Below are positions 990 through 54,624 of a DNA stretch of 64,000 bases, in pieces. The stretch lies in the NCBI GenBank assembly GCA_029077825.1, contig JAQNCT010000002.1:1-64000 (forward strand), read 5' to 3'. Made by a program: the position numbers and the translations under genes. How positions within the stretch are numbered: the first letter of the stretch is position 1; the number at the start of each line of letters is the position of its first letter. The notes under the pieces were generated by a model, which saw only the letters and a list, made by a program, of their open reading frames with translations, was not told the DNA's origin and did no database searches. Source of the stretch: Acidocella sp. (lineage in GTDB: Bacteria > Pseudomonadota > Alphaproteobacteria > Acetobacterales > Acetobacteraceae).

Positions 990-1763
990 AGCCCAGCCGG
1001 TCATGATGGCCATGCGCAGCGTTGCTATATACCGGCCCTCGCGCCTGGGCAGTTGTGCCAGGGCAGCGGGAAACATCGCACGGGGCGGAATTTTCCGGGA
1101 GCGCGCCTGTACCGCGTTGGCCTCGCCAGCCTGGCGCAGCTCATGCAGCAACGCCAACGGGCTGGCATATAAAAATTCGATATCTTCAACATCCGCCACC
1201 GGCAATGCAAATCCTGCCCGCTGCAGCAGCCCTGCGCAGTCACGTAAGTCAGGAAACGGCGAGACGCGGGGGTGTACTTGGCCGGTGAGCTCATGCTCGG
1301 CCTCCAGCAGGGCGGTGCGCAAATCCTGCAACGTGCCCAGCGTTGGTATGCTGGCCAGAAACAATCCGTTGGGCCGTAGCGCCCGGCGCAGCTGGATGAG
1401 TGCGCCGGGCAGGTCATTCACCCAATGCAGGCTTAAATGTGCGACGATCAAATCGAATGTCTTGTCGCCAAACGGCATGGCCTCGCCGTCAATTGCCAAA
1501 GCCATGCCGCCCGCCTTGGCTGCCATGGCGCCCGATAGATCAGCGCAGACAACTGCCATTCCGCGTGCCGCCAATGCGGGTGCTATGCTGCCGCGACCGC
1601 CAAAATCCAGCGCCGTTTTAAAAATGGTCGTGGTATCATCAAGCCGGTCCAGCAACCGCGCCGCCAGATCATCAAGCACTGGCGCCAGCGTGGCCACGCC
1701 GGCTGCGGCCCGCGCTCGGTGCTGGCGCACCGCTTGCGCATCGAAAATCTCTGCATCACTCAC
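984..1763 (-). CDS. NDUFAF5-like SAM-dependent methyltransferase
   Basis: A class I methyltransferase of about 259 residues. The SAM-binding loop is ALDFGGRGS near residue 50, followed by a motif III-like SLHWVNDLPGALIQLRRAL, which is the hallmark of the NDUFAF5/BioC-related group. In mitochondria NDUFAF5 modifies an arginine in complex I subunit NDUFS7; that this bacterial protein does the same is inference. The frame stays open upstream to 2054, but that part lies over comF, so I chose the GTG at 1761-1763. The start codons of this gene and the divergent comF are only 3 bases apart. Its neighbours comF, grxC and the DUF1178 gene recur together in Alphaproteobacteria. Confidence 0.8.
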   Translation of the reverse strand: MSDAEIFDAQAVRQHRARAAAGVATLAPVLDDLAARLLDRLDDTTTIFKTALDFGGRGSIAPALAARGMAVVCADLSGAMAAKAGGMALAIDGEAMPFGDKTFDLIVAHLSLHWVNDLPGALIQLRRALRPNGLFLASIPTLGTLQDLRTALLEAEHELTGQVHPRVSPFPDLRDCAGLLQRAGFALPVADVEDIEFLYASPLALLHELRQAGEANAVQARSRKIPPRAMFPAALAQLPRREGRYIATLRMAIMTGWAS

Positions 1764-1766
1764 GAC

Positions 1767-2513
1767 ATGACCCTTATCAGTTTCATCAAACCCATTGGCC
1801 GGGCGATTCTGGATACGCTGCTGCCGCCGAATTGTCTTGCCTGTGATACCCCAGTGGAAACCGACGGGCAGTTTTGCCTGGAATGTTTTCGCAAAACCAA
1901 TTTTATCTCCGCCCCCTTTTGCGATTGCTGCGGGGTGCCGTTGCCCTTTGGCGAGGCTGGTGGGCGAGCCGGTATCTGTCTGGTGTGCGAGGCAACGCCG
2001 CCGGCTTTCACCCAGGCCCGTGCAGCGCTGCGTTATGATGATGCGACCAAGCATCTCATCCTGCCCTTCAAATACGCTGACCGCACCGAGTCAGCCCGCG
2101 GGCTGGCCCTGCTGATGGCCAAAGCAGGTGCGGCCTTGCTATTGCGTGCTGACCAACTGGTGCCAGTGCCGTTGCATATCTCGCGTCTGCGCCAGCGCCG
2201 CTACAACCAGGCGGCATTACTGGCTTGGCAACTCGGGCGGATGATCAAAAAGCCAGTGCAGCCGGATGCTTTGGTGCGCAACCGCGTTACGGTTCCGCTG
2301 GGTCCATTGGGGTTTGAAGCACGGCGGAGCGAATTGCAGGATGCGATCACGGTGCGGGCCAAAAACATCGGCGGCAAGAACATTCTGTTGATCGACGACA
2401 TCATGACCTCTGGCGCTACTGCCAATGCCTGCGCTGTGGCCCTGCTGGCGGCGGGCGCTGCGCGGGTGGATGTGCTCACCGCCGCGCGCGTGCCTGATCC
2501 GCGTCTCACGTAA
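1767..2513 (+). CDS. comF: ComF family phosphoribosyltransferase-like protein
   Basis: 248 residues. The N-terminus carries a double zinc-ribbon pattern with cysteines at about 23, 26, 37, 40, 52, 55, 71 and 74. The C-terminus is a type I phosphoribosyltransferase domain with the PRPP loop ILLIDDIMTSGATA at about 206-219. ComF proteins are linked to DNA uptake in competent bacteria, and dprA, a second uptake gene, lies at about 29 kb. Start: the ATG at 1767 begins directly before the conserved N-terminal region; upstream in-frame codons overlap the divergent methyltransferase gene. The next gene, grxC, begins 52 bases downstream on the same strand. Confidence 0.88.
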   Translation: MTLISFIKPIGRAILDTLLPPNCLACDTPVETDGQFCLECFRKTNFISAPFCDCCGVPLPFGEAGGRAGICLVCEATPPAFTQARAALRYDDATKHLILPFKYADRTESARGLALLMAKAGAALLLRADQLVPVPLHISRLRQRRYNQAALLAWQLGRMIKKPVQPDALVRNRVTVPLGPLGFEARRSELQDAITVRAKNIGGKNILLIDDIMTSGATANACAVALLAAGAARVDVLTAARVPDPRLT

Positions 2514-2565
2514 CGCCCTCTTGCATCCGGCCCGGTTCCGGCTAGATGACGTTACGGAGACTATG

Positions 2566-2823
2566 ATGCCAAAAATCGAAATTTATACCCAAAACTTCTG
2601 CCCTTATTGTGCCCGTGCGGTAAAACTGCTGGCCAGTAAAGCTGTTGAATTCACTGAAATTGATGCACCGAACGGCTCGGCGGCTCGCAAGACCGCTATT
2701 GAGCGTTCAGGTGGCCGCAGCACTGTACCGCAGATTTTCATTAATGATCAGCCGATTGGTGGCTGCGATGATCTTGTGGCCCTCAACCGTGCCGGCAAGT
2801 TGGATGCAATGTTAGCCGGATGA
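2566..2823 (+). CDS. grxC: Glutaredoxin 3
   Basis: An 85-residue glutaredoxin with the dithiol active site CPYC at about residues 11-14, and the TVPQIFIN (cis-proline) and GGCDDL glutathione-binding motifs. It reduces protein and mixed disulfides in the cytoplasm using glutathione. Two ATG codons lie at 2563 and 2566; the GGAGA at 2556-2560 is better spaced for 2566. The frame stays open upstream into comF, but that region has no glutaredoxin similarity. The stop overlaps the start of the DUF1178 gene by 4 bases, so the two are translationally coupled. Confidence 0.93.
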   Translation: MPKIEIYTQNFCPYCARAVKLLASKAVEFTEIDAPNGSAARKTAIERSGGRSTVPQIFINDQPIGGCDDLVALNRAGKLDAMLAG

Positions 2824-3299
2824 TCCATTACCAACTTATTTGCGCTGGCTCACACGAGTTCGACGGCTGGTTCAAGGATAGTGAGAATTTTGAACGCCAG
2901 GCCAGGCGTGGTTTAATTTTATGCCCAATATGCGCCAGCACTAAGGTGGACCGCGCTCTTATGGCACCACGGCTGCGCAAAAAGGGCCGGGTGATCGACC
3001 ATGACCCGCAACCAAAAGTGTCAGCAACGCCCGCGATGGTTGAATCAACACCGTTGCAATCCACGGCGGGCATGATTCCGGACCAAGTGCGGGCAGTGCT
3101 TCATAAGTTACGCGCCGAGGTGGAGAAGAATTGCGATTACGTTGGCAATGAATTCGCAACTGAGGCCCGCAAAATTCATCACGGTGAGGCAAAGCCGCGT
3201 GGCATTTATGGTGAGAGTACCGAGGCTGAAGCCGAGGCGTTAGCCGACGATGGAATCGACGTGGCGCGGATCCCCTGGCTGCCAAGAGCTGATAGCTAG
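2820..3299 (+). CDS. DUF1178 family protein
   Basis: 159 residues. The N-terminus begins MIHYQLICAGSHEFDGWF and continues with a CPIC pair, which together give the cysteine pattern seen in DUF1178 proteins and suggest a small zinc-ribbon-like fold. The C-terminal half contains the conserved region around YVGNEFATEARKIHHGE. The function is unknown in the family. It overlaps grxC by 4 bases (ATGA) and ends 8 bases before the end of the convergent VWA gene. Co-occurrence with grxC suggests a redox or metal-related role, which is inference only. Confidence 0.85.
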   Translation: MIHYQLICAGSHEFDGWFKDSENFERQARRGLILCPICASTKVDRALMAPRLRKKGRVIDHDPQPKVSATPAMVESTPLQSTAGMIPDQVRAVLHKLRAEVEKNCDYVGNEFATEARKIHHGEAKPRGIYGESTEAEAEALADDGIDVARIPWLPRADS

Positions 3300-6921: not shown

Positions 6922-7910
6922 CCGGCCAAAATTCGCGCTGCCGACACCGCGAAATAGCTCAGCACGCCGGAGCACCCAGCCCGTTTGAAACCAAGCAAAC
7001 TCTCCAGCATTGCCCGGTCATGGTCCATCCAGCCGTTGTTTACCGCGGCCATAATCATGGCATACTCACCGGAAACTTGATAAGCAAAAACAGGGACTTT
7101 TAACTCGTCTTTGACACGGCGTATAATGTCCAGATACGGCATGCCGGGCTTGACCATGATCATGTCCGCCCCTTCGGCAATGTCCAAGGCGGCTTCACGC
7201 AAGGCCTCATCGGAATTAGCCGGGTTCATCTGGTAGGTTTTTTTATCACCTTTCAGCGCCCCACCGGAGCCGATGGCATCACGGAACGGGCCGTAAAAAG
7301 CCGAGGCGTATTTGGCGGCGTAGCTCATCAGGCGGGTGTGGATATGCCCAGCCTCATCCAGCCCGGCCCGCAAGGCGCCGATTCGGCCATCCATCATGTC
7401 AGAGGGGGAGATAATATCCACCCCCGCATTGGCCTGATTAACAGCTTGTTTTACCAGTATTTCAACCGATTCATCATTTGCCACATAGCCATCTCGTAAA
7501 ACGCCATCATGGCCATGGTTGGTGTAAGGGTCGAGTGCAACATCTCCCACAATGGCGATTTGCGGAAATTCCGCCTTCAAAATACGGGTGGCCTGGCACA
7601 GTAGGTTATTCGGGTTCAGCGCCTCGGTGCCTTCAGCATCTTTTTTTTCAGGGGATGTAGCGGGAAACAGCGCGATTGCAGGAATGCCAAGCCGGGCAGC
7701 TTCCTCAACATATTTTGCCAAACCATCCAGCGCTGTGCGCATTACGCCGGGCATCGAGGCAATCTCCACCGGGGCGCCGGTGCCCTCACGGATAAAAATC
7801 GGCCAGATCAGATCATCCACCGAGAGCTTGTTTTCCGCCACCAATCGCCGTGTTGCGTCATCAAACCGGTTACGGCGCATCCGGATAGCTGGGAATTTTG
7901 CATGTATCAT
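6918..7910 (-). CDS. hemB: Delta-aminolevulinic acid dehydratase (porphobilinogen synthase)
   Basis: 330 residues, full length. It condenses two aminolevulinate molecules to porphobilinogen in haem and cobalamin synthesis. The Schiff-base lysines are K200 (SYAAKYAS) and K254 (MVKPGMPYLD). The region where zinc enzymes have a cysteine triad reads DVALDPYTNHGHDG, so this belongs to the magnesium-responsive, zinc-independent type. It is transcribed away from rpiB, with 133 bases between the starts, and overlaps the NDUFAF6-like gene tail by 4 bases. Confidence 0.96.
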   Translation of the reverse strand: MIHAKFPAIRMRRNRFDDATRRLVAENKLSVDDLIWPIFIREGTGAPVEIASMPGVMRTALDGLAKYVEEAARLGIPAIALFPATSPEKKDAEGTEALNPNNLLCQATRILKAEFPQIAIVGDVALDPYTNHGHDGVLRDGYVANDESVEILVKQAVNQANAGVDIISPSDMMDGRIGALRAGLDEAGHIHTRLMSYAAKYASAFYGPFRDAIGSGGALKGDKKTYQMNPANSDEALREAALDIAEGADMIMVKPGMPYLDIIRRVKDELKVPVFAYQVSGEYAMIMAAVNNGWMDHDRAMLESLLGFKRAGCSGVLSYFAVSAARILAG

Positions 7911-8043
7911 AGAAACAATATTATCTGCTTATGCGCCGCAATCCAAGTCGTGAGATAGCCAAGCCGATTTTGCCACCCTGCCATTAGCCTGCCTCAGTAA
8001 GGGCTTGTTTCACAATAGCGATGCGCATGTTAAACTCCCACAC

Positions 8044-8496
8044 ATGACGAACTCTCTTATTGTGGCCATTGGTGCTGACCATGGCGGCGTATTGCTCAAA
8101 AACCGGCTGGCCGCAGTGCTGGCTGAAGCCGGTCATCAGGTGCTGGATTTCGGCACTGACGGCCCAGCCAGTGTTGATTACCCGGATTTCGCCCAGGCAG
8201 TCTGCGGTGCAATCACGCGCGCCGAGGCCGATTTAGGCATTCTGGTCTGTGGCACCGGCATCGGTATGTCGATTGCCGCCAACCGCCACCCAGCTATCCG
8301 TTGTGCCCTGGTGCATGATGTCACCACCACCCGGCTCACCCGCGCCCACAATGACGCTAACGTCATCGCCATGGGTGCTAGAATCATTGGCGAGGAAGTG
8401 GCGTTGGATATTCTCACCGCCTTTCTGACCACCAGATATGAAGGCGGACGACATGACCGCCGGATAGCCAAACTGAACATTGAAAGCGTGAAATAA
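8044..8496 (+). CDS. rpiB: Ribose 5-phosphate isomerase B
   Basis: 150 residues. It interconverts ribose 5-phosphate and ribulose 5-phosphate. Family landmarks are GADHGG near the N-terminus, the [13 protein letters not shown] phosphate loop with the active-site cysteine at about residue 69, and [14 protein letters not shown]. The ATG at 8044 opens the conserved IGADHG region; a longer in-frame start at 8005 is unsupported. It is the first gene of the long forward run and ends 4 bases before glyA. The 133-base spacer to hemB must hold the promoters; I saw no riboswitch in it. Confidence 0.93.
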
Positions 8497-8500
8497 AACA

Positions 8501-9799
8501 ATGAACAATCCCAACCTCTCGCCCAGCTATGACCGGTTTTTCACCGCCCACCTCGCGGAAACCGACCCCGAGTTGGCTGGCATTTTACACCAGGAACTCA
8601 CCCGCGAGCAGGACGGGATCGAGCTCATCGCCTCTGAAAACATCGTCTCTGCTGCGGTGATGGAAGCCCAAGGCTCGGTGCTGACCAACAAATACGCTGA
8701 AGGCTACCCCGGCAAACGCTATTACGGCGGCTGCGGCCCGGCGGACCTTGCCGAGACTTTGGCGATTGAGCGTGCCAAAAAACTCTTTGATGCCGGTTAC
8801 GCTAACGTGCAGCCCAATTCCGGCAGCCAGGCCAACCAGTCGGTGTTTTTGGCTTTGCTGAACGCAGGGGATACAATTCTGGGCATGTCTCTGGCGGCTG
8901 GCGGGCATTTAACCCACGGTGCTGCGCCCAACCTGTCTGGCAAATGGTTCAAGCCGGTGCAGTATGGCGTGCGTAAGGATGATGGGCTGATTGACTATGC
9001 CGAAGTTGCAGCACTAGCCCATGACCACAAGCCCAAACTTATCATCGCCGGTGGTTCTGCCTATCCGCGCTTCATTGATTTTGCGAAATTTCGCGCCATT
9101 GCTGATGAGGTCGGCGCGATGTTCATGGTTGATATGGCGCATTTTGCCGGTTTGGTGGCGGCGGGCATTTATCCCTCGCCGCTACCGCATGCTCATGTGG
9201 TTACCACCACCACGCATAAAACCTTGCGCGGCCCGCGCGGTGGCATGGTGCTGACCAATCATGAGGATATCGCCAAAAAAATTAACTCAGCCATTTTCCC
9301 AGGGTTGCAAGGCGGCCCGCTGATGCATGTTATTGCCGCCAAGGCGGTGGCATTTGGTGAAGCGCTGCGCCCGGACTTTCGCATTTACCAGAAGGCCGTG
9401 GTGGAAAATGCCAAGGCGCTATCTGAAACCTTGGTGGAGCAGGGGCTTGCCATTGTCACCGGTGGTACTGATAGCCATTTGCTGCTGGTTGATTTGCGCC
9501 CGAAAAACGTTACCGGCAAAGCCGCCGAAGCCAGTTTGGAACGCGCGCATATGACCGCGAATAAAAACGCCATTCCGTTTGATCCGCAAAAACCTTTCAT
9601 CACTTCCGGCATCCGCCTGGGCACCCCCGCCGCCACCACCCGTGGTTTCGGCGTGCCGGAATTCCGTGAAGTTGGCCTGATGATTGGCGAAGTGCTGGAT
9701 GGATTGAGCAAATCCAACGACGGCTCAAATGACACCATCGAACAGGCGGTTGGCGCCCGGGCAAAGGCCTTATGCGCCCGCTTCCCGATTTACAGGTAA
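8501..9799 (+). CDS. glyA: Serine hydroxymethyltransferase
   Basis: 432 residues, full length. This PLP enzyme converts serine and tetrahydrofolate to glycine and methylenetetrahydrofolate. The PLP lysine is K240 in the signature [14 protein letters not shown]; the substrate region [10 protein letters not shown] and the [13 protein letters not shown] loop are intact. It directly follows rpiB, and nrdR begins 8 bases after its stop, so these are probably co-transcribed. Methylenetetrahydrofolate from this reaction also feeds thymidylate synthesis, which matches the nucleotide-related neighbour nrdR. Confidence 0.97.
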
Positions 9800-43993: not shown

Positions 43994-44305
43994 TTGAAGC
44001 TCACCCCCCTGCTGGCTGGAATCCTGTTGACCACCGGCTTTGCCGCCGCCGCCTTGGCCGGCCCGCAACCAAACCCGCCGCCCTCCGGCGTGGTGGTGCA
44101 TTTATTCGGCGCGGACTCCGTCATGTCGAACGTGCTGCCGACCAGCGCAGCCACCGCGCTGGGCGCGACATCCAGCGCGTCACCGGGAACGCCGGCGGCT
44201 GAACCGACGCTGGGTGACATTGCGCACCAGATGTTCGTGGTGGGTGACCCGGAGCACCCACCCAAACCAGCGCCCGGTAAAACCCAGCCCGCCCCTACTA
44301 ATTAG
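43994..44305 (+). CDS. Small secreted hypothetical protein
   Basis: 103 residues starting at TTG 43994, which follows AAGGAG by 7 bases. A clear signal peptide (KLTPLLAGILLTTGFAAAALA, cleavage near ALA-GP) precedes a mature part rich in Pro, Ala, Thr and Ser with no recognisable domain. The Pro-rich start and end of the mature protein suggest an unfolded periplasmic or surface-linked peptide. The frame remains open upstream to 43760 but overlaps the DsbA-like gene. The stop overlaps the tail of the convergent EF-hand gene by 4 bases. Confidence 0.6.
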   Translation: MKLTPLLAGILLTTGFAAAALAGPQPNPPPSGVVVHLFGADSVMSNVLPTSAATALGATSSASPGTPAAEPTLGDIAHQMFVVGDPEHPPKPAPGKTQPAPTN

Positions 44306-44706
44306 CCAGCGGCGCGCAATTCACCTGCTTTTTTTTCCAGACGTTTGGCCATTTCGTCCATGTGCCAAGCCTGCACCTCGTTGAACGTGACATAGCCGCG
44401 TTTGGCGGTGTCAATCTCGGCAAAATGCTTCACCACCGGCTTCAAGTCGGCAGCCGTGGCCTGTGCCAGCGTTAAGTGCCCATCATGGGTGGTATTGGCG
44501 GCGTTAAATCGGTCATGCATTTTCTGGTCCATCGCCATGTGCCTATGGTCCCCATGACCGGGCGCAACGGGTGCGCCAAGCGGTGTGCCGGGCGGTGCGC
44601 CACCCGGGCCTTGCATGGTGGAGGGCGGGTTGGGCGCGGACTGGGCCAGCGCCATGCCTGGGACGATCAAGGTAGCGAGCAACGGTATAAAAATAAAACG
44701 GCGCAT
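44302..44706 (-). CDS. Secreted EF-hand-like protein
   Basis: 134 residues. A signal peptide (FIFIPLLATLIVPGMALA) is followed by a Pro/Gly/His-rich linker and two EF-hand-like loops: NTTHDGHLTLAQ near residue 72 and DTAKRGYVTFNE near residue 98. The loops keep only part of the acidic calcium ligands, and the linker holds HGDHRHMAMD, so calcium or other metal binding is uncertain. Similar short EF-hand proteins are common in alphaproteobacterial periplasms. It is convergent with the small secreted protein gene and lies 72 bases after rpsD on the same strand. Confidence 0.72.
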   Translation of the reverse strand: MRRFIFIPLLATLIVPGMALAQSAPNPPSTMQGPGGAPPGTPLGAPVAPGHGDHRHMAMDQKMHDRFNAANTTHDGHLTLAQATAADLKPVVKHFAEIDTAKRGYVTFNEVQAWHMDEMAKRLEKKAGELRAAG

Positions 44707-44778: not shown

Positions 44779-45393
44779 TTAACGGGAGTAGAATTCCACC
44801 ACTAAATTCGGGTCCATCTGCACCGGATAGGGCACATCAGCCAGCTTTGGGGCCCGCAGGAACTTGCCCTTCATGGCGCGGTGATCAACTTCCATATATT
44901 CCGGGATGTCGCGCTCGGTGCTCTGGGCGGCGTCTAAAACCACAGCGATCTGCTTGGATTTCTCACGCACTTCAATCTCGTCACCATCCTTCACCAGGAA
45001 CGACGGGATATTCACCTTCTGGCCGTTGACCATCACATGGCCATGGCTGACGAACTGGCGGGCCGCAAACGGGGTGACCGCGAATTTCATCCGGTAGATC
45101 ACCGCATCCAGGCGGCGCTCGAGGATTTCGATGAGGTTTTCAGAAGTGTCACCCTTACGGCGCACCGCTTCCTCATAATATTTGTAGAAGGATTTTTCGG
45201 AAATATTGCCGTAATAGCCCTTCAGCTTCTGCTTCGCCATCAACTGCACGCCGTAATCGGACGGCTTCTTGCGGCGCTGGCCATGCTGGCCCGGCCCGTA
45301 TTCGCGCTTGTTCACCGGCGATTTGGCGCGGCCCCACAAATTAGCGCCCAAACGGCGGTTAATTTTATACTTACTCTCAGTGCGCTTGGTCAT
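44779..45393 (-). CDS. rpsD: 30S ribosomal protein S4
   Basis: 204 residues. It begins [21 protein letters not shown] and contains the S4 RNA-binding domain ([15 protein letters not shown] to [15 protein letters not shown]). S4 is one of the primary 16S rRNA-binding proteins and often represses its own synthesis. It stands outside the ribosomal operon, as is usual in Alphaproteobacteria. The ribosome binding site AAAGGG lies before the ATG. Its leader (about 110 bases) carries a strong hairpin, and a good promoter lies at 45509-45537. Confidence 0.97.
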
Positions 45394-45599: not shown

Positions 45600-48500
45600 C
45601 TACGGCGCAACCCAGGACTGAATCACCGCCGCTAGCGCAAGCGTTAGGCCGTGCCGGGGCGGTTCGTGCAAATACAACTCGGCGCTGGCACCCATCCATA
45701 TCCCCTGATCATCCGCAGCCTGCTCATACCACCCCTGCCCCAGCCCGGTCTGGCTGGGCAGCCTAGCCAGACAAATTCCCAGTTGCCGCCTGTCCTCGGA
45801 GTCTGGGTCGGTATCAGCCGGGGCAGCGCTGCGGGTTACCAGGGCCAGCTTGCCCGCCGCCCGGTTGATAGGGAACGCCGCAATCCGCTGCCCGCGCCGC
45901 CAGCCAAAGCACGGCAGCAGCGATTGCTGCCCGGCGATGCCGCGCAGCCCGGCGTGGTAAGTGAGGCAAAACCCGGCCTGTAGCGCGATATCATGCAGCC
46001 TGCGCCGGATTTTTGCCAATTCTGGCCCCTTGGTGACCAGCGGGGCGCAAGGTACTCGGCCTGAGCCGCGCTCACCAAGCTCATGATACAGCGCGCCGCG
46101 GTTGCCGGTATCAAGATAACTCTCCGCCGCCATGCCGTCGGCCAGCAGAAGATCGTGCCGGTCCAACTCGATATGGTAATAGGTCACTGCTGCCTGTGGC
46201 GTTTCGGTAATGGTAGCACCGTTTACCAAATGGCACGCTGGCACCAGCACGCCTTGCAAATACACCGCGTGCAACGGTGATAAATACACTGGCCGGGCTG
46301 GCACGCCCGGCCCCAACGCGCCAGCTGCAAAGCGTACCGGGCTGGCCGCCGGTTTGCCGCCGAGATCAAGTGTTCGCCAGCCAACCCAGCATACCCGGCG
46401 GCGCACGCCATTCAGGGTGATGATCGGGTCATTCGGCTTGAACGCCTCCACCGGCTTGTAGCCGTTCGGCGTCAGCAGCCTGGTGCCGCGCTTGAAGCAA
46501 GGCATGTCACCGCCCAGTGTGATCAGCGTGCCGCCATGACCATCGGAGAGTAGTTGCACCCCCGGCTGGCTCGCCGCCACGCTTAATGCAAAGCTGCCAA
46601 GTGCTATGCCATTGGCATCGCTGGCGCTGATTGTGCCGCCGCTAAAACTCACCAGCGATGGTGCCACGCCGACAAGATCAATCGCGTCATGGTCCAGCAT
46701 ATTGGCTACCGCACCACTGAACTGCGCAACATCATTGATCGTCAGTTCGGCGCTGCCGCCGGTGAAATCAATTGTGCCGCCGCTAAACCCGTGTGCCACA
46801 TCCAGCGCCGAAAACCCGGATATCACGATCACACTGCCGTCGCTCAAGCTGATGTTATCCGCCAGTAGCAAATTGCCGCCGGCTTGAATCTCGCCCCCCA
46901 GCAAGCTGATACTTCCCAGTCCGCCAGCCTGCCCGACCATGCCGCTGCCGCTCAGCATGGCCCCCGCCAGCAGCGTCACTGAGGGGCTGAATAAACGACC
47001 GCCCGCCAGTGTGATGCTGCCCTGCGAGATGAGCGCACCACTCAACGACATTTCCCCGGCCAGAGTGATGAGCCCGCTGTTTTGCTGCAACGATGCCGCT
47101 TGCAAAACCGCCCCCGGCCCCACCAGCAGCGTGCCCGATTGCGCCACCCCGCCGCTGAGCGCGAGGGTGGCGGTGCCGCCGAGGTCAATAGCGCCCGGCA
47201 GAGACAGGCTGGTGCCGCTCAGCACCGCCTGATCGAAAATATTCAGCACGCCAAAATCGCTCAGCGTCCCGACACTCACCAGCGCTGCACCCTCACCGCT
47301 TAGCGTGCCAAAGCTGCTGATATTTGAAGCCACCAGGCTGCCGGTGACCACCACAGCCGCGCCGGGGGCCACAGCCAAGGTTCCGGCAATATCAATGGCG
47401 CCAGCAATATCCATCCCGCTGGCGGCACCGAGCGTGACATTGCCATCAGCCACAAAATAGCTGGTCAGAACACTTAGCGAGCCGCTCCCCGTTGAATCGC
47501 CAATCGTAACGTTTTCCCGCAGCGTGACGTTGGCACCGGCATCGAACAGCGCATTACCACCGCCATCCACCAGCAACGCGGTGCCGGATAGCCCATCCAC
47601 CATCAGCACACTGGCAATATCCTTGGTACCGGTAATGATTATTTCCCCTGGAGCAGCCTGCCCCTGGATGGGTGTCATTACCTGATCATTGAATACTGAG
47701 ACCTGCCCGGCATCGCCGAAAAATCCGGTCACCGTGCCGCCGGCATTATTCATCATCACCGGCACCGTAGTATTCAGCCCCGGTAACAAAGCGCTGTTGC
47801 TGCTGATGGTGAGCACATCGGCTACCGCCCCGGCTTTTGCCGTATAATTCAACCCGGCCAGATCAGCGTTCAGCGCCGTGGGGTTGGCCGCGATAAATGT
47901 CATCTGCGCCGCCGCCGTGCCGTTCGTTTCGCTCAGGACCCCGTTGGCAACTGCCAGCGTGAGTGAAATGCTCTGGCCGCTCCAACCGCGCAGCAATACG
48001 TCAAAGCCTAAAAGCGGCTGCGCCACGCCCGGCTGCGCCACAATCGCCGCTGAAGCCGCGCTTAATCCATTAATAAAAATATCCGCGCTGGCATTTCGCA
48101 GGCTAACTTCACCGTCGCCTTGCGCATCAACCCCCACAAACAACGATGCGCCCACCGGATAAGCGGCGTTGATGGTGAAAGATTGCGTAACCCCTTGCGC
48201 ATCGGTTCCGGCAACGACAAAATTATTAGCGGTGATGTTAAACAAAGACAGCCCGTTCAACCCAGGAAAAATCAGCCGGTCACCTGGCGCGAAGTTCAGA
48301 ATTTTGCCCGAAAATACCGCCGGGCTGGTTATCACAATCACCCCGCCGGTCTGCGCCAGCGTATCAGCATAGGCACCGGTGAATGTTGCAGCACCGCTAT
48401 CATTCAGAAAATTAAGTACCGCTGGTGATGCCACCGTCAGCGGGGTGGTGCTGAACACCCCGTATAACGGATCCAATGGCCCAAGTGCCAGCACCCCACC

Positions 48501-49790
48501 GGCGGCGACATCGAGCGTGGTGCCTATAATATCGCCCGCCGCGATCACGATGGTCTCACCGCCGCCCGCCAGAATTTCACCGGCCCCGCTGATCAACCCG
48601 GCCTCGCTGAAATTACCGGCCACCAGTTCGCCCGAGCCGGTTAACACAGCACCCGCCGCCAGTGACAAGGCCGCAACGTAGTTCGTGCCGATGGCTGTCC
48701 CTGCCTCAAACGTACCGGCAAAGTCCAGCAGCGCGCCGCTACCCAGTGACACCAGCCCCGCCACGCTGGCACTGCCTGACACAATCAGCGTCCCTGCCTC
48801 GCTGAATGATGCTGCCCCGAGCTGGCCGAAATCATACGAGGTGCCACCCAGGACGAGCTGGTTATATGGCATCTGCAAGGCCGCATCTGGGGTGATTATC
48901 ACTGAACCAGCGCCGCCGATGCCACCGATGTCACTGACGGTTTGCGTCACTTGCAGGGTGCTGCCCAGGCTGAGCATGCTCACCCCCAATATCGCGGTGT
49001 CCGCACCGCTATTAATGGTGCTGAGCGGCCCCGGCACGCCGGTGACATCAAGCGTGATGTTGCCGGACGTGACAGCACTCCCAAGCGGCCCCGCCACATC
49101 GCGCGCCGCATAGGCCAGCCCGGTGATGGCGGCTGGCCCGGCCCATTGCAGGCCGGCCAGCAATATATTCACCGCTGTCAACTGAGTGGCGGTAAAGTTA
49201 AGTATAATTTGGTTTGTTCCAACGCCGCTTGCACTAATGCCACTTTGCAGCGAGAGGCCCGGGAGCAGCAGCACGCCAGAGGCGGCACTCAGCGTCACCG
49301 CCAGGCTCTCGCTATTGCCCTGCCCGGCCGCCGCCAGCGCACTGGCCGCCGGGTTTGCAAGCACCAGCCCGCTGATCGGATCTACCGTGTAGGATACCAA
49401 ATTCATACTGGTGGGCGGTGCTACAAACGCTGCCCCCACCGCCGGAATAACATTGACCGCTATATCCGTTGTGGCACTCAGCAAAGCCGGATCATTGGCG
49501 ATGATCAGCAACGTATCTGGCACGGTCTCCCGATCCTGCAAGCTTGCCAAGGCGGCATTTACTTGCGCCAGACTGCCGGCAATGCTGAGCGTATTGGCGA
49601 CACTGCTGATTGTGGCGCCGCTGGCGGAACTAGCGCTCAGCCGTGCCGCGCTGTTCCCTGCAATGATCGTGACGCTAATGATGCCGCCGGATGAGTCCAG
49701 CAGACTTAACGGTGCCGGATCACTCGTGCTGGTCACACTGCCAAGCAGTGCCACCGTGGCGGGGGCAATGATGTCGATCCGGTTGGTCAC
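45600..49790 (-). CDS. Large beta-repeat protein with C-terminal Hint domain
   Basis: 1396 residues. The first 1090 or so are low-complexity beta-type repeats rich in Ala, Gly, Ser, Leu and Val, with three related units (near 20-110, 130-250 and 570-680) containing patterns like ANDPALLSATTDIAVNV and SSNSALLPGLNTTVPV, then many SG-rich strands resembling a right-handed beta-helix. A Hint domain starts at C1098 (PCFKRGTRLLTPNGYKPVE) and includes LSPLHAVYLQGVLVPACHL. No Sec signal is seen, so type I secretion is possible. Hint folds can self-cleave, but an Asn-Cys/Ser splice end is not obvious. The gene lies upstream of rpsD and divergent from the photolyase gene. Confidence 0.8.
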   Translation of the reverse strand: MTNRIDIIAPATVALLGSVTSTSDPAPLSLLDSSGGIISVTIIAGNSAARLSASSASGATISSVANTLSIAGSLAQVNAALASLQDRETVPDTLLIIANDPALLSATTDIAVNVIPAVGAAFVAPPTSMNLVSYTVDPISGLVLANPAASALAAAGQGNSESLAVTLSAASGVLLLPGLSLQSGISASGVGTNQIILNFTATQLTAVNILLAGLQWAGPAAITGLAYAARDVAGPLGSAVTSGNITLDVTGVPGPLSTINSGADTAILGVSMLSLGSTLQVTQTVSDIGGIGGAGSVIITPDAALQMPYNQLVLGGTSYDFGQLGAASFSEAGTLIVSGSASVAGLVSLGSGALLDFAGTFEAGTAIGTNYVAALSLAAGAVLTGSGELVAGNFSEAGLISGAGEILAGGGETIVIAAGDIIGTTLDVAAGGVLALGPLDPLYGVFSTTPLTVASPAVLNFLNDSGAATFTGAYADTLAQTGGVIVITSPAVFSGKILNFAPGDRLIFPGLNGLSLFNITANNFVVAGTDAQGVTQSFTINAAYPVGASLFVGVDAQGDGEVSLRNASADIFINGLSAASAAIVAQPGVAQPLLGFDVLLRGWSGQSISLTLAVANGVLSETNGTAAAQMTFIAANPTALNADLAGLNYTAKAGAVADVLTISSNSALLPGLNTTVPVMMNNAGGTVTGFFGDAGQVSVFNDQVMTPIQGQAAPGEIIITGTKDIASVLMVDGLSGTALLVDGGGNALFDAGANVTLRENVTIGDSTGSGSLSVLTSYFVADGNVTLGAASGMDIAGAIDIAGTLAVAPGAAVVVTGSLVASNISSFGTLSGEGAALVSVGTLSDFGVLNIFDQAVLSGTSLSLPGAIDLGGTATLALSGGVAQSGTLLVGPGAVLQAASLQQNSGLITLAGEMSLSGALISQGSITLAGGRLFSPSVTLLAGAMLSGSGMVGQAGGLGSISLLGGEIQAGGNLLLADNISLSDGSVIVISGFSALDVAHGFSGGTIDFTGGSAELTINDVAQFSGAVANMLDHDAIDLVGVAPSLVSFSGGTISASDANGIALGSFALSVAASQPGVQLLSDGHGGTLITLGGDMPCFKRGTRLLTPNGYKPVEAFKPNDPIITLNGVRRRVCWVGWRTLDLGGKPAASPVRFAAGALGPGVPARPVYLSPLHAVYLQGVLVPACHLVNGATITETPQAAVTYYHIELDRHDLLLADGMAAESYLDTGNRGALYHELGERGSGRVPCAPLVTKGPELAKIRRRLHDIALQAGFCLTYHAGLRGIAGQQSLLPCFGWRRGQRIAAFPINRAAGKLALVTRSAAPADTDPDSEDRRQLGICLARLPSQTGLGQGWYEQAADDQGIWMGASAELYLHEPPRHGLTLALAAVIQSWVAP

Positions 49791-49861
49791 TGGGAAGAGA
49801 GTGATACAACCAAATCCACTTCGTCAATTCATCAACACAACTTTAAATTAATCAAGATGAA

Positions 49862-49933: not shown

Positions 49934-51364
49934 ATGAATGTTAATATTGTCTGGTTCAAAAACGATCTTCGGCTGGCTGATAACCCGGCCCTCCACGCCG
50001 CGTTGCAATCAGCTGAACGTATTCTGCCAGTGTTTGTGCTGGATGATCATATGCCGGCCATTGAAACGCCCGGCGGTGCCAGCCGATGGTGGCTGCACCA
50101 TTCGCTCAGCGCGCTGGCCGCCGATCTACGTGTAATTGGTGCGGAGCTGGTGCTGCGCCGGGGCGAGGCCAGCCACATTATTCCGGCCTTGGCCTTGGAA
50201 ACCGGGGCCAGCGCCGTGCATACCGCCCGCGCCCATGAACCGGCGATGCGGGCCGTTGACAAACAAGTGGCCACGGCACTGCAAGTCCATAAAATAGAAT
50301 TTCATCGCCACCTGTCAGCTGCGCTATTCGCGCCGGAGCGGATCACCACCAAAACCGGCGGCGTTTACGGGGTTTACACGCCATTTTCCCGCGCTTGTTT
50401 TGACGCCGGCGTCTCGGAGGATGAACTGCCCGTCCCCACCAATATTCCTGGCGTGCGCAATATCGCCAGCGATGATTTATCAAGCTGGGCGCTACTGCCC
50501 ACCCAACCCGACTGGGCACAGGCATTCCCTGCCTCCTGGCAACCCGGCGAGGCTGGGGCGCACCAGAAGCTTGCCGCTTTCCTGCAAACCGCCGTCGGGC
50601 CTTACGCCGACGCCCGCAACCTGCCCGGCCAGCCTGGCACCTCGCGTTTGTCACCGCATCTGCATTTTGGCGAAATCTCACCGCGGACCGTATGGAACCG
50701 TGCGGTCCACGCCAAAGGCCAGGGCGTGCAAACTTATCTAAAGGAGCTACTCTGGCGCGAGTTTTCAATGTATCTGCTTTGGCACCATCCCAACCTCGCC
50801 AGTGTGCCGATTCGCTCCGAATTTGCCAATTTCCCATGGGCTGATGATCGTGCCGGTTTGCGTGCCTGGCAGCGCGGCCAGACCGGCATTCCGATCGTTG
50901 ACGCCGGGATGCGCGAACTCTGGCAAACCGGCTGGATGCATAACCGGGTGCGCATGATTGTCGCCTCGTTCCTGGTTAAGCATTTGTTAATACCCTGGCA
51001 GGTGGGCGAGGCGTGGTTCTGGGACACGCTGGTCGATGCCGACTTGGCCGCCAACGCAGCCTCCTGGCAATGGGTGGCCGGCTGCGGCGCCGATGCCGCG
51101 CCGTATTTCCGAATTTTCAATCCGGTGCTGCAAGGACAAAAATTCGATGCCGATGGCACCTATGTGCGTCGCTACATTCCCGAGCTCGCGGCGCTGCCGA
51201 ACCAATATATCCACGCCCCATGGGACGCACCGGAAATTATTCTCACAAGCGCTCGCGTAACACTGGGCCGGACCTATCCAAAGCCGTTAATAACGCTTAC
51301 CCAAGGTAGGGAACGAGCACTTGCCGCCTACCGGCAGATTTCGAAATCGGGACAGCATGACTGA
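49934..51364 (+). CDS. phrB: Deoxyribodipyrimidine photolyase
   Basis: 476 residues. An N-terminal Rossmann-type antenna domain (IVWFKNDLRLADNPAL) is followed by the C-terminal FAD-binding helical domain with LRPHLHFGEIS-type SRLSPHLHFGEISPRTV, WREFSMYLLW, GIPIVDAGMRELWQTGWMHNR and YFRIFNPVLQG. It repairs pyrimidine dimers using blue light. It opens a forward operon; its stop overlaps the next gene by 8 bases, which links repair to the lipid-type genes that follow. Confidence 0.95.
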   Translation: MNVNIVWFKNDLRLADNPALHAALQSAERILPVFVLDDHMPAIETPGGASRWWLHHSLSALAADLRVIGAELVLRRGEASHIIPALALETGASAVHTARAHEPAMRAVDKQVATALQVHKIEFHRHLSAALFAPERITTKTGGVYGVYTPFSRACFDAGVSEDELPVPTNIPGVRNIASDDLSSWALLPTQPDWAQAFPASWQPGEAGAHQKLAAFLQTAVGPYADARNLPGQPGTSRLSPHLHFGEISPRTVWNRAVHAKGQGVQTYLKELLWREFSMYLLWHHPNLASVPIRSEFANFPWADDRAGLRAWQRGQTGIPIVDAGMRELWQTGWMHNRVRMIVASFLVKHLLIPWQVGEAWFWDTLVDADLAANAASWQWVAGCGADAAPYFRIFNPVLQGQKFDADGTYVRRYIPELAALPNQYIHAPWDAPEIILTSARVTLGRTYPKPLITLTQGRERALAAYRQISKSGQHD

Positions 51365-52628
51365 AGTAAAGCCTAAAATCGCCGTGATTGGCGCTGGCAT
51401 TTCCGGCCTTTCAGCGGCCTGGCTGCTGCGTGACAAATTTGATGTCACTCTCTACGAGTCGGAATCCCGCGCCGGCGGCCATGCGGATACGCAATTGGTA
51501 ACATTGGATGGCGAAACCGTGCCGGTGGATACCGGCTTCATCGTGTTCAATAATGTCAACTACCAAAATCTTGTTGGTTTTTTCGAGCATCTTGGCATTG
51601 CAACGCATGATAGCAACATGTCGTTTGGGGTTTCCAAGGATAATGGGGCGTTTGAATACGCTGGCGGCGAGTTTAAGCAATTGTTTGCCCAACCCACTAA
51701 TTTACTGAAACCGCGCTTCTGGCGATTGCTGCGCGATATTATGCGTTTCAATCGTGCCGCACCCGCACTGCTTGAGACAACTTCCGAGCTGAGCCTTGGC
51801 GAGTACCTCACCCGTAACAATTATTCCACCGCCTTTATCGAAGATTACATCCTACCGATGGGCGCTGCCATCTGGTCGTCCTCGGTGGAGGGCATGAAGG
51901 CGTTTCCGGCGCGAGGTTTCATCCGGTTCTTCGTCAATCATGGGCTGTTGAAATTCACGGACCGCCCGCAGTGGCGCACGGTCACCGGCGGCTCAAAGGT
52001 TTATGTCGAGCGGGTTCTGCGCGACCTTGCCGATGTCAAACTTGACTCCGCGGTGCGGCAAGTCTCCCGCAGCGATGCCGGCGTGATTGTCGAATCGCTG
52101 GCTGGACGTGAGACTTTCGCGCATGTCGTGTTCGCCTGCCATGCTGATCAGGCACTGGCGATGATCGACAGGCCGGAGCCTGAGGAGTCGCTCATTCTGG
52201 GCGCGATCAAATTTCAGAACAACATCGCCATTTTACATCAGGACGCCAAGCTAATGCCAAAGCGCAAGCTGGCCTGGTCATCCTGGAACTATCTGAGCTA
52301 CGCCAAGGATGATCAGTGCCATGCTGTGTGCCTGACCTACTGGATGAACCTGCTGCAAGGAATGCACACCAAGTTGCCTTTGCTGGTCAGCCTGAATCCT
52401 TTAATATCGATCGATTCCGATAAAATCCTGCTGCGCAAAGTCTATCGCCATCCACAGTTCAACGCCGCTGCCATGCAGGCGCAAGAAGACTTACCGAAAC
52501 TCCAGGGGGCTGACCGGCTGTGGTTTGCGGGTGCTTGGACCTGCTGGGGCTTCCATGAAGATGGCATCGCCTCCGCAGTGCGAATTGCCAATGCTTTGGG
52601 GGTGCAGGCACCTTGGCAAAGGTCCTGA
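51357..52628 (+). CDS. NAD(P)/FAD-dependent oxidoreductase
   Basis: 423 residues. The dinucleotide-binding motif IGAGISGLSAAWLL lies at about 11-24, followed by the amine-oxidase-type ESESRAGGHADT. The C-terminus ends with the FAD-contact WFAGAWTCWGFHEDGIASA. This protein is regularly encoded between photolyase and DUF1365/cyclopropane synthase genes. Family relatives are amine oxidases and carotenoid/fatty-acid desaturases, so redox change of a lipid is plausible. ATG at 51357 overlaps the photolyase stop by 8 bases. Confidence 0.87.
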   Translation: MTEVKPKIAVIGAGISGLSAAWLLRDKFDVTLYESESRAGGHADTQLVTLDGETVPVDTGFIVFNNVNYQNLVGFFEHLGIATHDSNMSFGVSKDNGAFEYAGGEFKQLFAQPTNLLKPRFWRLLRDIMRFNRAAPALLETTSELSLGEYLTRNNYSTAFIEDYILPMGAAIWSSSVEGMKAFPARGFIRFFVNHGLLKFTDRPQWRTVTGGSKVYVERVLRDLADVKLDSAVRQVSRSDAGVIVESLAGRETFAHVVFACHADQALAMIDRPEPEESLILGAIKFQNNIAILHQDAKLMPKRKLAWSSWNYLSYAKDDQCHAVCLTYWMNLLQGMHTKLPLLVSLNPLISIDSDKILLRKVYRHPQFNAAAMQAQEDLPKLQGADRLWFAGAWTCWGFHEDGIASAVRIANALGVQAPWQRS

Positions 52629-53395
52629 CGGCGCCAGCCACACTTTATGTCGGCCGGGTGGCGCATATCCGCCACACGCCGTTTCGCTATCGGTTTGATT
52701 ACCGGATGTTTATGTTCGCGGTTGACCTTGACCGCATTGATGAGGTTGCCGCTGCCAGCCGGGTTTTCAAGCACAACAAGCCTGGCCTGACCGCCATTGC
52801 TGACCGCGATCACGGCTTTCGTGATGGCCGCTCGCTGCGGGCTTTCGTTGAGGACGCGCTGGCCCAGCAGAACATGCAGAGCTTCGGTGCTCGGATTACT
52901 TTCATCACCATACCGCGTCTGCTCGGTTATGCCTTCAACCCCATCAGTTTTTATTACTGCTACGATGCCGAGGGCCGCCTTGGCGCGGTGCTGCATCAGG
53001 TGAAAAACACCTTCGGCTGCCAAATCGGCTACTTATTGCCAGTGCATGGCACCGGCATCATCCGCCAGTCCACGGTTAAACGCATGTATGTCTCACCATT
53101 TTTTGATATGCAGGGCGGCTACCGTTTTGCTCTCTCCCCGCCTGCGGATAAACTTACCGTGTCAATCCAGTACGGCGAGGCGGCGCAGAAGCGGATGACC
53201 GCCACGATGGTTTTGAACGCGCGAGCGTTCACAGATGCGTCAATCCTGAGTTTACTGGCCAAAATGCCGTTCGCGCCAATGAAAGTGATGATGGCGATTC
53301 ACTGGCAGGCCCTAAAGCTTTACCTGCGCGGTGCCAAGTTCCATCCAGTACCGCCAATCAATCGCGAAACGATCATCGCCGGAGAGGGTAAATGA
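52613..53395 (+). CDS. DUF1365 family protein
   Basis: 260 residues. The conserved landmarks are TLYVGRVAHIRHTPFRYRF at the N-terminus, LLGYAFNPISFYYCYD in the middle, and VSPFFDMQGGYRF. The function is unknown; the family occurs next to cyclopropane-fatty-acid synthase genes. The TTG at 52613 sits 16 bases before the end of the FAD gene. Its own stop overlaps the synthase gene start by 4 bases, so the three genes are coupled. Confidence 0.85.
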   Translation: MAKVLTAPATLYVGRVAHIRHTPFRYRFDYRMFMFAVDLDRIDEVAAASRVFKHNKPGLTAIADRDHGFRDGRSLRAFVEDALAQQNMQSFGARITFITIPRLLGYAFNPISFYYCYDAEGRLGAVLHQVKNTFGCQIGYLLPVHGTGIIRQSTVKRMYVSPFFDMQGGYRFALSPPADKLTVSIQYGEAAQKRMTATMVLNARAFTDASILSLLAKMPFAPMKVMMAIHWQALKLYLRGAKFHPVPPINRETIIAGEGK

Positions 53396-54624
53396 CTGAG
53401 ACGACGACCGCTAACGCCATGACCAATTTTCCCCTGGCCAAACCCCGGGACCGCCGCTTGCAACTGGCTCTGCAATTTGCCCGCCTGCTGCGCGCTGGGC
53501 GGCTGAACCTGGTTCTACCCAATGGCAGCACGCATCATTTTGAAGGCTCCGAACCCGGCCCAACCGCCACCATGCTGCTGCGTGACCCCCGCATGATCAC
53601 CAAGCTCGTGTTTGGCGGCTGCCTTGGCCTCTCGGAAGCCTATATGGACGGCATGTGGGACAGCCCCAACCTTACTGACGTATTGCGGCTCGGCACCGCC
53701 AATGAGCAAGCCTTTGAGGCTATGCTGCGCGGCAAAAATTGGGCTCGGTTTGCCTCCTGGATGATGCATAAACTGCGCCCCAACACCCGCAAGGGTTCGC
53801 GCAAAAATATCGCCGAGCATTACGACCTTGGCAATGATTTTTATGCGCAGTGGCTTGATGGCTCGATGACCTACTCCGCCGCCCTGTTCAGCAATGGCGA
53901 GAATGATTTGCAAGCCGCCCAAGTTGAAAAATATCGCCGCCTTTGCCGTGCGCTGGACATTCAACCCGGCATGAGCGTGTTGGAAATCGGCTGCGGCTGG
54001 GGCGGTTTTGCTGAGGTGGCTGCTGGTGAATTTGGCGCCATTGTCACCGGCATCACGCTCTCAACCGAGCAGCTTATTTTCGCGCAGGAGCGCATGATAA
54101 AGGCTGGACTGGCCGATAAAGTGACCCTTAAATTGGAAGACTACCGCGACACCACAGGCCATTTTGACCGTGTTGCCTCCATTGAGATGTTTGAAGCCGT
54201 AGGAGAAGCATACTGGCCGGTGTATTTCCAGACCGTGCGCGACCGTCTTCGCCCCGGCGGCCAGGCGGGCATACAGGTTATTACGATCGCAGATAGGTTT
54301 TTCGCCGACTACCGCATGACCGCCGATTTCATTCAGCGCTATGTGTTCCCAGGCGGCATGTTGCCCTCCCCCACCCGGCTGCGTGAGGAAATTGCTGCCG
54401 CAGGTATGCATTTACATGATAGTTTCTGGTTTGGCCGTGACTATGCTGAAACCCTCAGCCGCTGGCAGGCCAGCTTCCAGGCGGCGTGGGATAAAATTGC
54501 CGGACTTTCTTCGCAATATGACGAACGTTTTAAGCGTTTGTGGGAGTTTTATCTAGGCTATTGCGAAGTTGGCTTTGAAGCCGGCTGGACGGATGTCAGC
54601 CAGATCGTGATTCGCCGCGCCTGA
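53392..54624 (+). CDS. cfa: Cyclopropane-fatty-acyl-phospholipid synthase family methyltransferase
   Basis: 410 residues. The SAM motif VLEIGCGWGGFAE (about 195-207), HYDLGNDFYAQWLD and the SIEMFEAVGEAYWPVYF segment match CFA synthases. It adds a methylene or methyl group to unsaturated phospholipid acyl chains in the membrane. Relatives in photo-oxidative-stress operons methylate vaccenate (UfaM-like), so product could be a methylated rather than cyclopropane lipid. It overlaps DUF1365 by 4 bases; 36 bases separate it from the transporter gene. Confidence 0.92.
   Translation: MTETTTANAMTNFPLAKPRDRRLQLALQFARLLRAGRLNLVLPNGSTHHFEGSEPGPTATMLLRDPRMITKLVFGGCLGLSEAYMDGMWDSPNLTDVLRLGTANEQAFEAMLRGKNWARFASWMMHKLRPNTRKGSRKNIAEHYDLGNDFYAQWLDGSMTYSAALFSNGENDLQAAQVEKYRRLCRALDIQPGMSVLEIGCGWGGFAEVAAGEFGAIVTGITLSTEQLIFAQERMIKAGLADKVTLKLEDYRDTTGHFDRVASIEMFEAVGEAYWPVYFQTVRDRLRPGGQAGIQVITIADRFFADYRMTADFIQRYVFPGGMLPSPTRLREEIAAAGMHLHDSFWFGRDYAETLSRWQASFQAAWDKIAGLSSQYDERFKRLWEFYLGYCEVGFEAGWTDVSQIVIRRA

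Follow-up and report, generated by a model that had tools for sequence, protein, structure and literature searches.

In a 64,000-nucleotide stretch of Acidocella sp. DNA (GenBank assembly GCA_029077825.1, contig JAQNCT010000002.1, positions 1 to 64,000; hereafter the window) we identified a gene whose product of 1396 residues combines a predicted adhesin-like passenger (residues 1-1097), a Hint_2 domain and a C-terminal domain (CTD). The reading that we favor, with a confidence slightly better than even, is that of a secreted adhesin-like protein in which a Hint domain of the type-B kind cleaves after Pro1097, either slowly or when triggered. Computation shows the order of the domains, the HINT fold, catalytic residues that are either conserved or lost together, the absence of the intein end, a step in composition at Cys1098 and the conservation of the gene; export, cleavage and the fate of the thioester are what we infer. 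A preliminary description of the window had proposed that the Hint fold may release or attach a surface part, an interpretation that is plausible and partly supported: the large protein is probably surface-exposed, and its Hint domain may cut or tether it. The pattern of residues preceding Cys1, the joint loss and the composition step are new points.

Acidocella is an acidophilic member of the Acetobacteraceae, and the source genome measures 2.55 Mb. The reading frame starts with GTG at position 49790, and the plus strand of 45600-49790 is interrupted by many stops; a frame of 1396 residues ending in a Hint domain had been described correctly before, with its strand, the minus one, left unstated.

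Hint domain, junction and composition step

Pfam Hint_2 (PF13403) matched residues 1097-1228 with an E-value of 3.6e-39 and a score of 134.9 bits, the cut-off being 28.4, and was the sole domain returned by the Pfam scan of the protein at E <= 1. Cys1098 opens this domain, in agreement with the preliminary description, and the structure modelling that the latter had proposed as a check gave a HINT fold. In the model of residues 1060-1396 (predicted local distance difference test, pLDDT, 90.2) the best structural match was 2lwy, a bacterial intein-like domain (Z 13.5 over 116 residues, root-mean-square deviation, rmsd, 2.1), hedgehog 1at0 reached a Z of 11.4, and inteins, bacterial intein-like domains (BIL), Vint or hedgehog chains accounted for 49 of the 50 matches listed (Z 8.4-13.5, 111-125 residues). 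Cys1098 fell at residue 1 of several inteins in the structural alignment. As modelled, the fold is a true HINT fold.

Conservation of the putative catalytic residues was determined in a Hint-CTD alignment of 56 rows (55 of 57 references plus the source protein, L048 and L060 being left out) and in a larger collection of 122 Hint domains, for which no cysteine was presupposed and in which L005 is a fragment without the Cys1 region. A further alignment comprised 28 of those references plus the source protein. The counts for Cys1098, His1174, His1206, His1212 and Glu1223 are given in Table 1; the block-B motif [ST]xxH reads S1171-P-L-H1174, with Ser1171 present in 55 of the 56 rows. Cys1 is absent from three of 121 domains (L113, L152 and the second open reading frame, ORF, of L135), and all three also lack the block-B His and His1206 while retaining Glu1223. 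Such a joint loss would be expected of residues that act together in catalysis, and it therefore raised our estimate of the cleavage reading and lowered that of a mere scaffold. The same three domains, that of L113 lying in a Hint ORF near 7862-9074, are natural dead copies that would be useful as controls.

After block F the sequence reads AESYLDTGNR, that is, without the C-terminal His-Asn of block G (motif positions by our own reading), so that neither cyclisation of Asn nor splicing would be expected; N-terminal cleavage or transfer would be the most to expect. The account of intein motifs in PMC4031507 has the block-B His assisting the first acyl shift, a description that His1174 matches, and type-B BIL are reported to cleave without splicing (PMC4031507, PMC7765530). 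With Cys1, the block-B and block-F His and no His-Asn end, the profile of the domain, read from its residues, is that of a type-B BIL. The open-access papers listed for this subject, a set that mostly excludes BIL papers under subscription, included no test of Hint_2 cleavage.

The residue at position -1 of the presumed scissile bond was tallied in 89 Hint_2 domains (from 94, after removal of the duplicates L003, L107, L108 and L068 and of one short secondary match), giving Pro 66, Ala 14, Thr 3, Val 2, Ile 2, Ser 1 and Leu 1. A further 28 domains from plasmids and from other genera and families gave Pro 10, Ile 5, Val 3, Ala 3, Thr 2, Lys 2, Cys 2 and Asn 1; two of 30 rows without a Cys motif were excluded here, in line with the missing Cys1 of L113 and of the second L135 ORF in the wider set, L152 belonging to neither tally, and L121, L124 and L132, which are below the Pfam cut-off, count as Hint-like only. 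Both tallies combined, Pro occupies position -1 in 76 of 117 domains and Gly in none. Pro at this position probably slows the chemistry, and the pattern suggests a junction selected to be slow or triggered; since Pro precedes Cys1, the reaction would be slow or trigger-dependent.

A sharp step in composition coincides with Cys1098. The 1097 passenger residues include 12 Lys+Arg (3 of them Lys), 68 Asp+Glu and no Cys, with an isoelectric point (pI) of 4.05, which is near the floor of the pI program; the 299 residues of Hint and CTD include 32 Lys+Arg, 24 Asp+Glu and 7 Cys (pI 9.2). Lys+Arg content averaged 0.78% in the passenger and 12.15% in the Hint-CTD part of 29 orthologs, compared to 2.65% (spread 0.24 to 13.56%) and 10.66%, respectively, in 78 other Hint_2 proteins, whose loci hold about 1.5 kb of upstream sequence and thus give a partial passenger composition. 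In this set ORFs were read from stop to stop, and duplicates and ORFs with fewer than 150 upstream residues were dropped. The step would be accounted for if the passenger and the Hint-CTD part had different fates; it is no proof of cleavage.

Passenger, C-terminal domain and conservation

The passenger is rich in Ala (165), Gly (157), Leu (136) and Ser (120) and was modelled mostly as strands, so that composition counts and model agree with the Ala/Gly/Ser-rich beta-repeat region first described. Its model (m16cd4d4b0a76, mean pLDDT 81.3) comprises three beta-sandwiches and two beta-helix-like stretches (Table 1). Profile comparison related the sandwiches to each other through U3 (U2-U3, E 2.8e-7; U1-U3, E 3.2e-5; U1-U2, E 0.026 only), and part of S1 resembled S2 over 57 columns (E 4.1e-5). 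Three repeat units sharing a sequence pattern had been proposed: three related modules are indeed present, although the quoted string DPALLSATTDIAV occurs literally in the first unit only, and what the units share is a fold more than that string.

Table 1. Features of the Acidocella gene and its surroundings, with positions in the window
Feature	Positions	Strand	Remarks
Whole gene, 1396 aa, GTG start	45600..49790	-	GTG or ATG at the corresponding site in most orthologs
U1, beta-sandwich module, residues 25-118	49437..49718	-	model m16cd4d4b0a76; related to U3
U2, Ig-like beta-sandwich module, residues 140-252	49035..49373	-	model; related to U3
S1, first beta-helix-like stretch, residues ~257-470	48381..49022	-	modelled strand pattern
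U3, beta-sandwich module, residues 575-684	47739..48068	-	model; profile comparison
S2, second beta-helix, residues ~715-1095	46506..47648	-	pLDDT mostly >90 from about residue 780
Pro1097, residue -1 of presumed scissile bond	46500..46502	-	Pro in 27/29 orthologs
Hint_2 domain, residues 1098-1236	46083..46499	-	Pfam match and modelled fold
Cys1098, Hint residue 1	46497..46499	-	56/56 aligned rows; 118/121 domains covering the site
His1174, block-B His of S-P-x-H	46269..46271	-	56/56 rows; 118/118 Cys-bearing domains, 0/3 without
His1206, intein F:4 position by motif reading	46173..46175	-	55/56 rows; 117/122 domains
His1212, intein F:13 position by motif reading	46155..46157	-	56/56 rows; 121/122 domains
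Glu1223, near the His-Asn end of inteins	46122..46124	-	56/56 rows; 122/122 domains, including those without Cys1
CTD, beta-rich, residues 1240-1396	45603..46073	-	modelled with pLDDT >90
rpsD, conserved downstream neighbour	44779..45393	-	adjoins the gene in most loci
-10-like TGTATCA, 11 nt before start codon	49802..49808	-	like element in orthologs

Comparison of the passenger with Pfam and PDB sequences gave no solid family match. By structure (VIA-align), U2 matched residues 142-256 of human B4GALNT1 (Z 13.8, 110 residues, rmsd 2.0), and S2 matched antigen 43 (residues 712-1094, Z 12.1, rmsd 9.1) and the adhesin domain of Candida Awp1 (residues 737-979, Z 11.2, rmsd 3.7); integrins, cadherins and S-layer proteins matched at a Z of about 7, middling by the scale of VIA-align. 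As modelled, the passenger is thus described as adhesin-like, with Ig/cadherin-like sandwiches and two beta-helices.

The region after Hint forms a separate domain that certain other Hint_2 proteins lack. Of 90 ORFs that matched this CTD, 89 matched Hint as well, and the last one stops where its contig does. No CTD match was found in 46 of the 135 ORFs with Hint, these mostly carrying a tail of 43-70 residues; both ORF sets include overlapping loci taken twice, and the linkage count is biased because loci were mostly collected by Hint. A CTD-led search of 13 genomes, with 24 places of which some were retrieved, is the fairer test of linkage. The CTD (pI 9.1) had no Pfam match at E <= 0.1, and one of 29 members scanned matched DUF6302 at 0.0088. 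No clear structural relative of the CTD appeared among the matches listed for the model of residues 1060-1396; a fucosidase-type chain scored Z 4.5, which is within noise as VIA-align describes it. Junction and tail are unusual, and the domain architecture is ordinary for its family.

Orthologs were detected at E <= 1e-60 in 32 of 38 Acidocella genomes, one per genome except for G024, where the gene is in two pieces. Open frames of more than 1250 residues occur in 27 Acidocella genomes, the source genome included, which argues against a chance ORF. The 26 other long-frame orthologs share 41-83% identity with the source protein, and the Hint domain is their best-conserved segment (mean identity 63.7%, compared to 40-54% for the passenger segments and 46% for the CTD); two contigs of Acidocella metagenome-assembled genomes carry relatives at 72 and 75% identity. 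The gene rpsD adjoins it in 28 of 32 loci, or 27 of 30 once duplicates are removed (L068 repeats L065, and L071 repeats L066), and of the three distinct loci without rpsD, L066 and L090 stop at a contig end and L070 truly differs. Being kept in most genomes of the genus, usually beside rpsD, the gene is a stable one and looks vertically kept. Passenger identity across orthologs was 36-82%, mostly 39-46%, beside 86-99% for the neighbouring rpsD, a strict yardstick of divergence since it encodes a ribosomal protein.

Seventeen of 27 orthologs have a -10-like element (TGTATAA, TGTATCA or alike) that ends 9-12 nucleotides upstream of the start codon, and no ribosome-binding site was evident in 49791-49830. 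The layout of these 40 nucleotides is as for a leaderless mRNA, judging by its motifs; a simple promoter scan reported nothing at the element and one site overall, with 2.1 expected. A divergent cluster at 49934-54624 encodes a photolyase, an amine oxidase, a DUF1365 protein and a cyclopropane synthase; a photolyase stands beside the Hint gene in four other distinct loci, all from near relatives (short flanks examined). At 44302-44706, between a DSBA-like gene and rpsD, lies a gene for a small protein with a sub-threshold EF-hand match, found in many orthologous loci. Scans of the Hint protein with NCBIfam, PHROGs and PADLOC gave no match (the latter two at E <= 0.1), and a defence or phage protein was rejected on the PADLOC and PHROGs results.

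Export route and alternative explanations

According to the cleavage reading, residues 1-1097, with their Ig/cadherin-like modules and two beta-helices, would form the extracellular part, and the protein would most likely exit without a Sec signal through an HlyB/HlyD-type system whose genes lie at another place in the genome. Once the protein has been exported, an N-to-S acyl shift at Pro1097-Cys1098, aided by the block-B His, would give a thioester that water or an acceptor could resolve, so that the passenger would be freed or tethered and a Hint-CTD piece of 32 kDa released. Type I is the likely export route. The own-genome paralog L004 (positions 901-3198 of this locus, on contig C98) joins an M10 metallopeptidase, a serralysin-type segment and an RTX match with Hint_2 and a CTD, and an M10 domain with a serralysin-type C-terminal build is typical of type I substrates. 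Several RTX repeats are carried by the relatives L006, L114 and L128, and at least one copy of the pattern GxGxDxU was found in 20 of 135 Hint ORFs. The search for a type I secretion system that the preliminary description had called for gave a gene pair of this kind in the genome: an HlyD gene that scores over cut-off stands next to a gene for an ABC exporter, whose product has about 200 residues before its membrane domain; glycosyltransferases and Sel1 repeats surround this gene pair, and no Hint gene was recognised near it among ORFs of at least 200 residues.

A number of results weigh against this reading. No type I secretion gene adjoins the Acidocella Hint_2 gene, the ABC exporter protein scores below the PrtD cut-off, and the GxGxDxU scan revealed no RTX repeat in this protein, so that an RTX adhesin was rejected. 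Type I genes were present in none of five Hint_2 plasmid neighbourhoods, hand-picked among 30 matches listed of 203 records and with incomplete gene tables; one of them has type II genes and one a two-partner secretion gene. HlyD-type genes were detected in 144 of 150 Acetobacteraceae genomes (115 of 117 with Hint_2 and 29 of 33 others; Fisher p 0.021, kinship ignored), and because they are near-universal their co-occurrence with Hint_2 says little. A type I link by neighbourhood or by co-occurrence was rejected on these grounds. The absence of a Sec signal, as previously described, holds in that no clear one was found and the N-terminal residues were modelled as strands, but by a crude hydropathy measure the N-terminus (2.14) is about as hydrophobic as the Sec controls LpxR, SLT_2 and RlpA from the neighbourhood (2.22, 2.08 and 2.57), with cytoplasmic controls at 0.65, -0.29 and 1.34; among 29 ortholog rows, which include the source and two duplicates, 25 scored 1.2-1.9 and 4 scored 2.1-2.2. 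The passenger model, with a predicted template modelling score of 0.46, does not fix the arrangement of the modules in space, the composition step could mirror only the needs of each fold, and the joint loss amounts to three domains. Pro at position -1 is poor for N-terminal cleavage by inteins. Thioester ligation is slow at Pro, Val and Ile according to PMC5458133.

Alternatively, the Hint domain would be a non-cleaving folded C-terminal cap or export module, whose conserved residues keep the fold and whose Pro was selected to block the acyl shift. We regard this as unlikely, though as an alternative to be taken seriously. It would account for the frequency of Pro at -1 (66 of 89 domains in one tally, 10 of 28 in the other), most of the remaining residues being Ala or beta-branched, and the title of a paper cited in PMC4031507 states that splicing is attenuated when hydrophobic and beta-branched residues precede; moreover, Cys1 can be lost without loss of the fold, as in 3 of 121 domains. 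However, 118 of 121 domains have both Cys1 and the block-B His and 3 have neither, while E1223 stays, a pattern more in keeping with a chemical role than with that of a scaffold, and bulky residues at -1 promote the acyl shift in one intein (PMC6333167). Improbable is a Hog-like protein, in which the CTD would recognise a surface nucleophile (a polysaccharide, a lipid A sugar or a hopanoid polyol) that would receive the thioester, and the passenger would become covalently anchored through Pro1097. The order of parts, Hint followed by a recognition region, is that described for hedgehog in PMC7765530. Near-constant company of CTD and Hint, the basic CTD with its one weak fucosidase-type match, and sugar genes near two of the five plasmid Hint_2 genes are in line with it, as is the passenger with 3 Lys in 1097 residues, which would leave few competing amines. 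Against it, neither sequence nor fold clearly relates the CTD to domains that bind sterols or sugars, the fucosidase-type match being at noise level, the Hint ORFs without a CTD match are many (duplicates included), and L152, from within the genus, has a CTD without Cys1.

A cytoplasmic or otherwise non-exported protein of unknown use appears very unlikely. It would agree with the lack of a clear Sec signal and of adjacent export genes; nevertheless, the adhesin- and autotransporter-like folds, the depletion of Cys and of Lys/Arg, the RTX-bearing relatives and a passenger that diverges fast beside rpsD all speak for export. We give equally little credence to a bolder extension, namely that Hint_2-CTD of the Acetobacteraceae is a counterpart of hedgehog lipidation, in which a slow, acid-triggered Pro-thioester would be transferred by the CTD to a surface sugar or hopanoid polyol. 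Many different passengers would thereby be welded to the cell surface, a Lys-poor passenger avoiding self-attack, and the acidic outside would favor the thioester because the freed amine is protonated; the acid trigger and the hopanoid are our own suggestions.

Distribution and comparison with known systems

Hint_2 was detected in 36 of 37 genomes of the genus Acidocella and in 117 of 150 Acetobacteraceae genomes, with up to at least 24 matches per genome, which bears out the earlier statement that such proteins are frequent in acetic acid bacteria. In the class as a whole, Hint_2 was matched at E <= 0.001 in 14 of 289 genomes, 10 of these being over cut-off. One genome of the genus (G013, 4.3 Mb) has 37 Hint_2 matches compared to 5 in the source genome, and a locus of the latter (L005/L154, contig C28) covers only profile positions 77-146 inside the contig, perhaps as a decayed copy. 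Hint and RTX domains are described as over-represented in strongly responding marine Rhodobacteraceae (PMC12487129), and a Hint_2-type protein of Acetobacteraceae is named in PMC11999647, where its function is called unknown.

Hint_2 tails sit on many large Acetobacteraceae proteins, and if they cleave or ligate, they would represent a widespread and little-studied route of protein processing or surface anchoring; if this is true, the proline junction could serve as a slow thioester tool. Here a known domain family sits on an adhesin-like passenger, junction and tail make its known chemistry worth testing, and the Acidocella gene, with one copy per genome, is a clean test case.

Among known systems, an intein was rejected, as there is neither a His-Asn end nor a split host gene. 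The protein resembles type-B BIL, compared through review descriptions, in its HINT fold, Cys1 and block-B His and in lacking the C-terminal His-Asn, and differs from them in the Pro before Cys1 and in the fused CTD. With hedgehog Hog it shares a Hint fold followed by a further C-terminal domain, but the CTD has no detected link to the sterol-recognition region and no hedgehog signalling domain was found by Pfam at E <= 1. The beta-helix passenger recalls antigen 43 and other autotransporters; nevertheless, a type V autotransporter was rejected, because the C-terminus consists of Hint and a CTD of 157 residues in place of a barrel, neither a Pfam barrel match nor a clear Sec signal being found. 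Like type I RTX adhesins and serralysins, the protein is Cys-poor, acidic and devoid of a clear Sec signal, and the paralog that joins M10/serralysin-type parts with Hint_2 links it to them, whereas it has no RTX repeat by pattern and transporter genes are not adjacent. Finally, Hint_2 proteins of Acetobacteraceae and other Alphaproteobacteria are alike in bearing the domain near the C-terminus behind varied passengers, and the Acidocella gene differs from the others in its long Ig/beta-helix passenger, in being present once per genome and in being syntenic in most of the genus.

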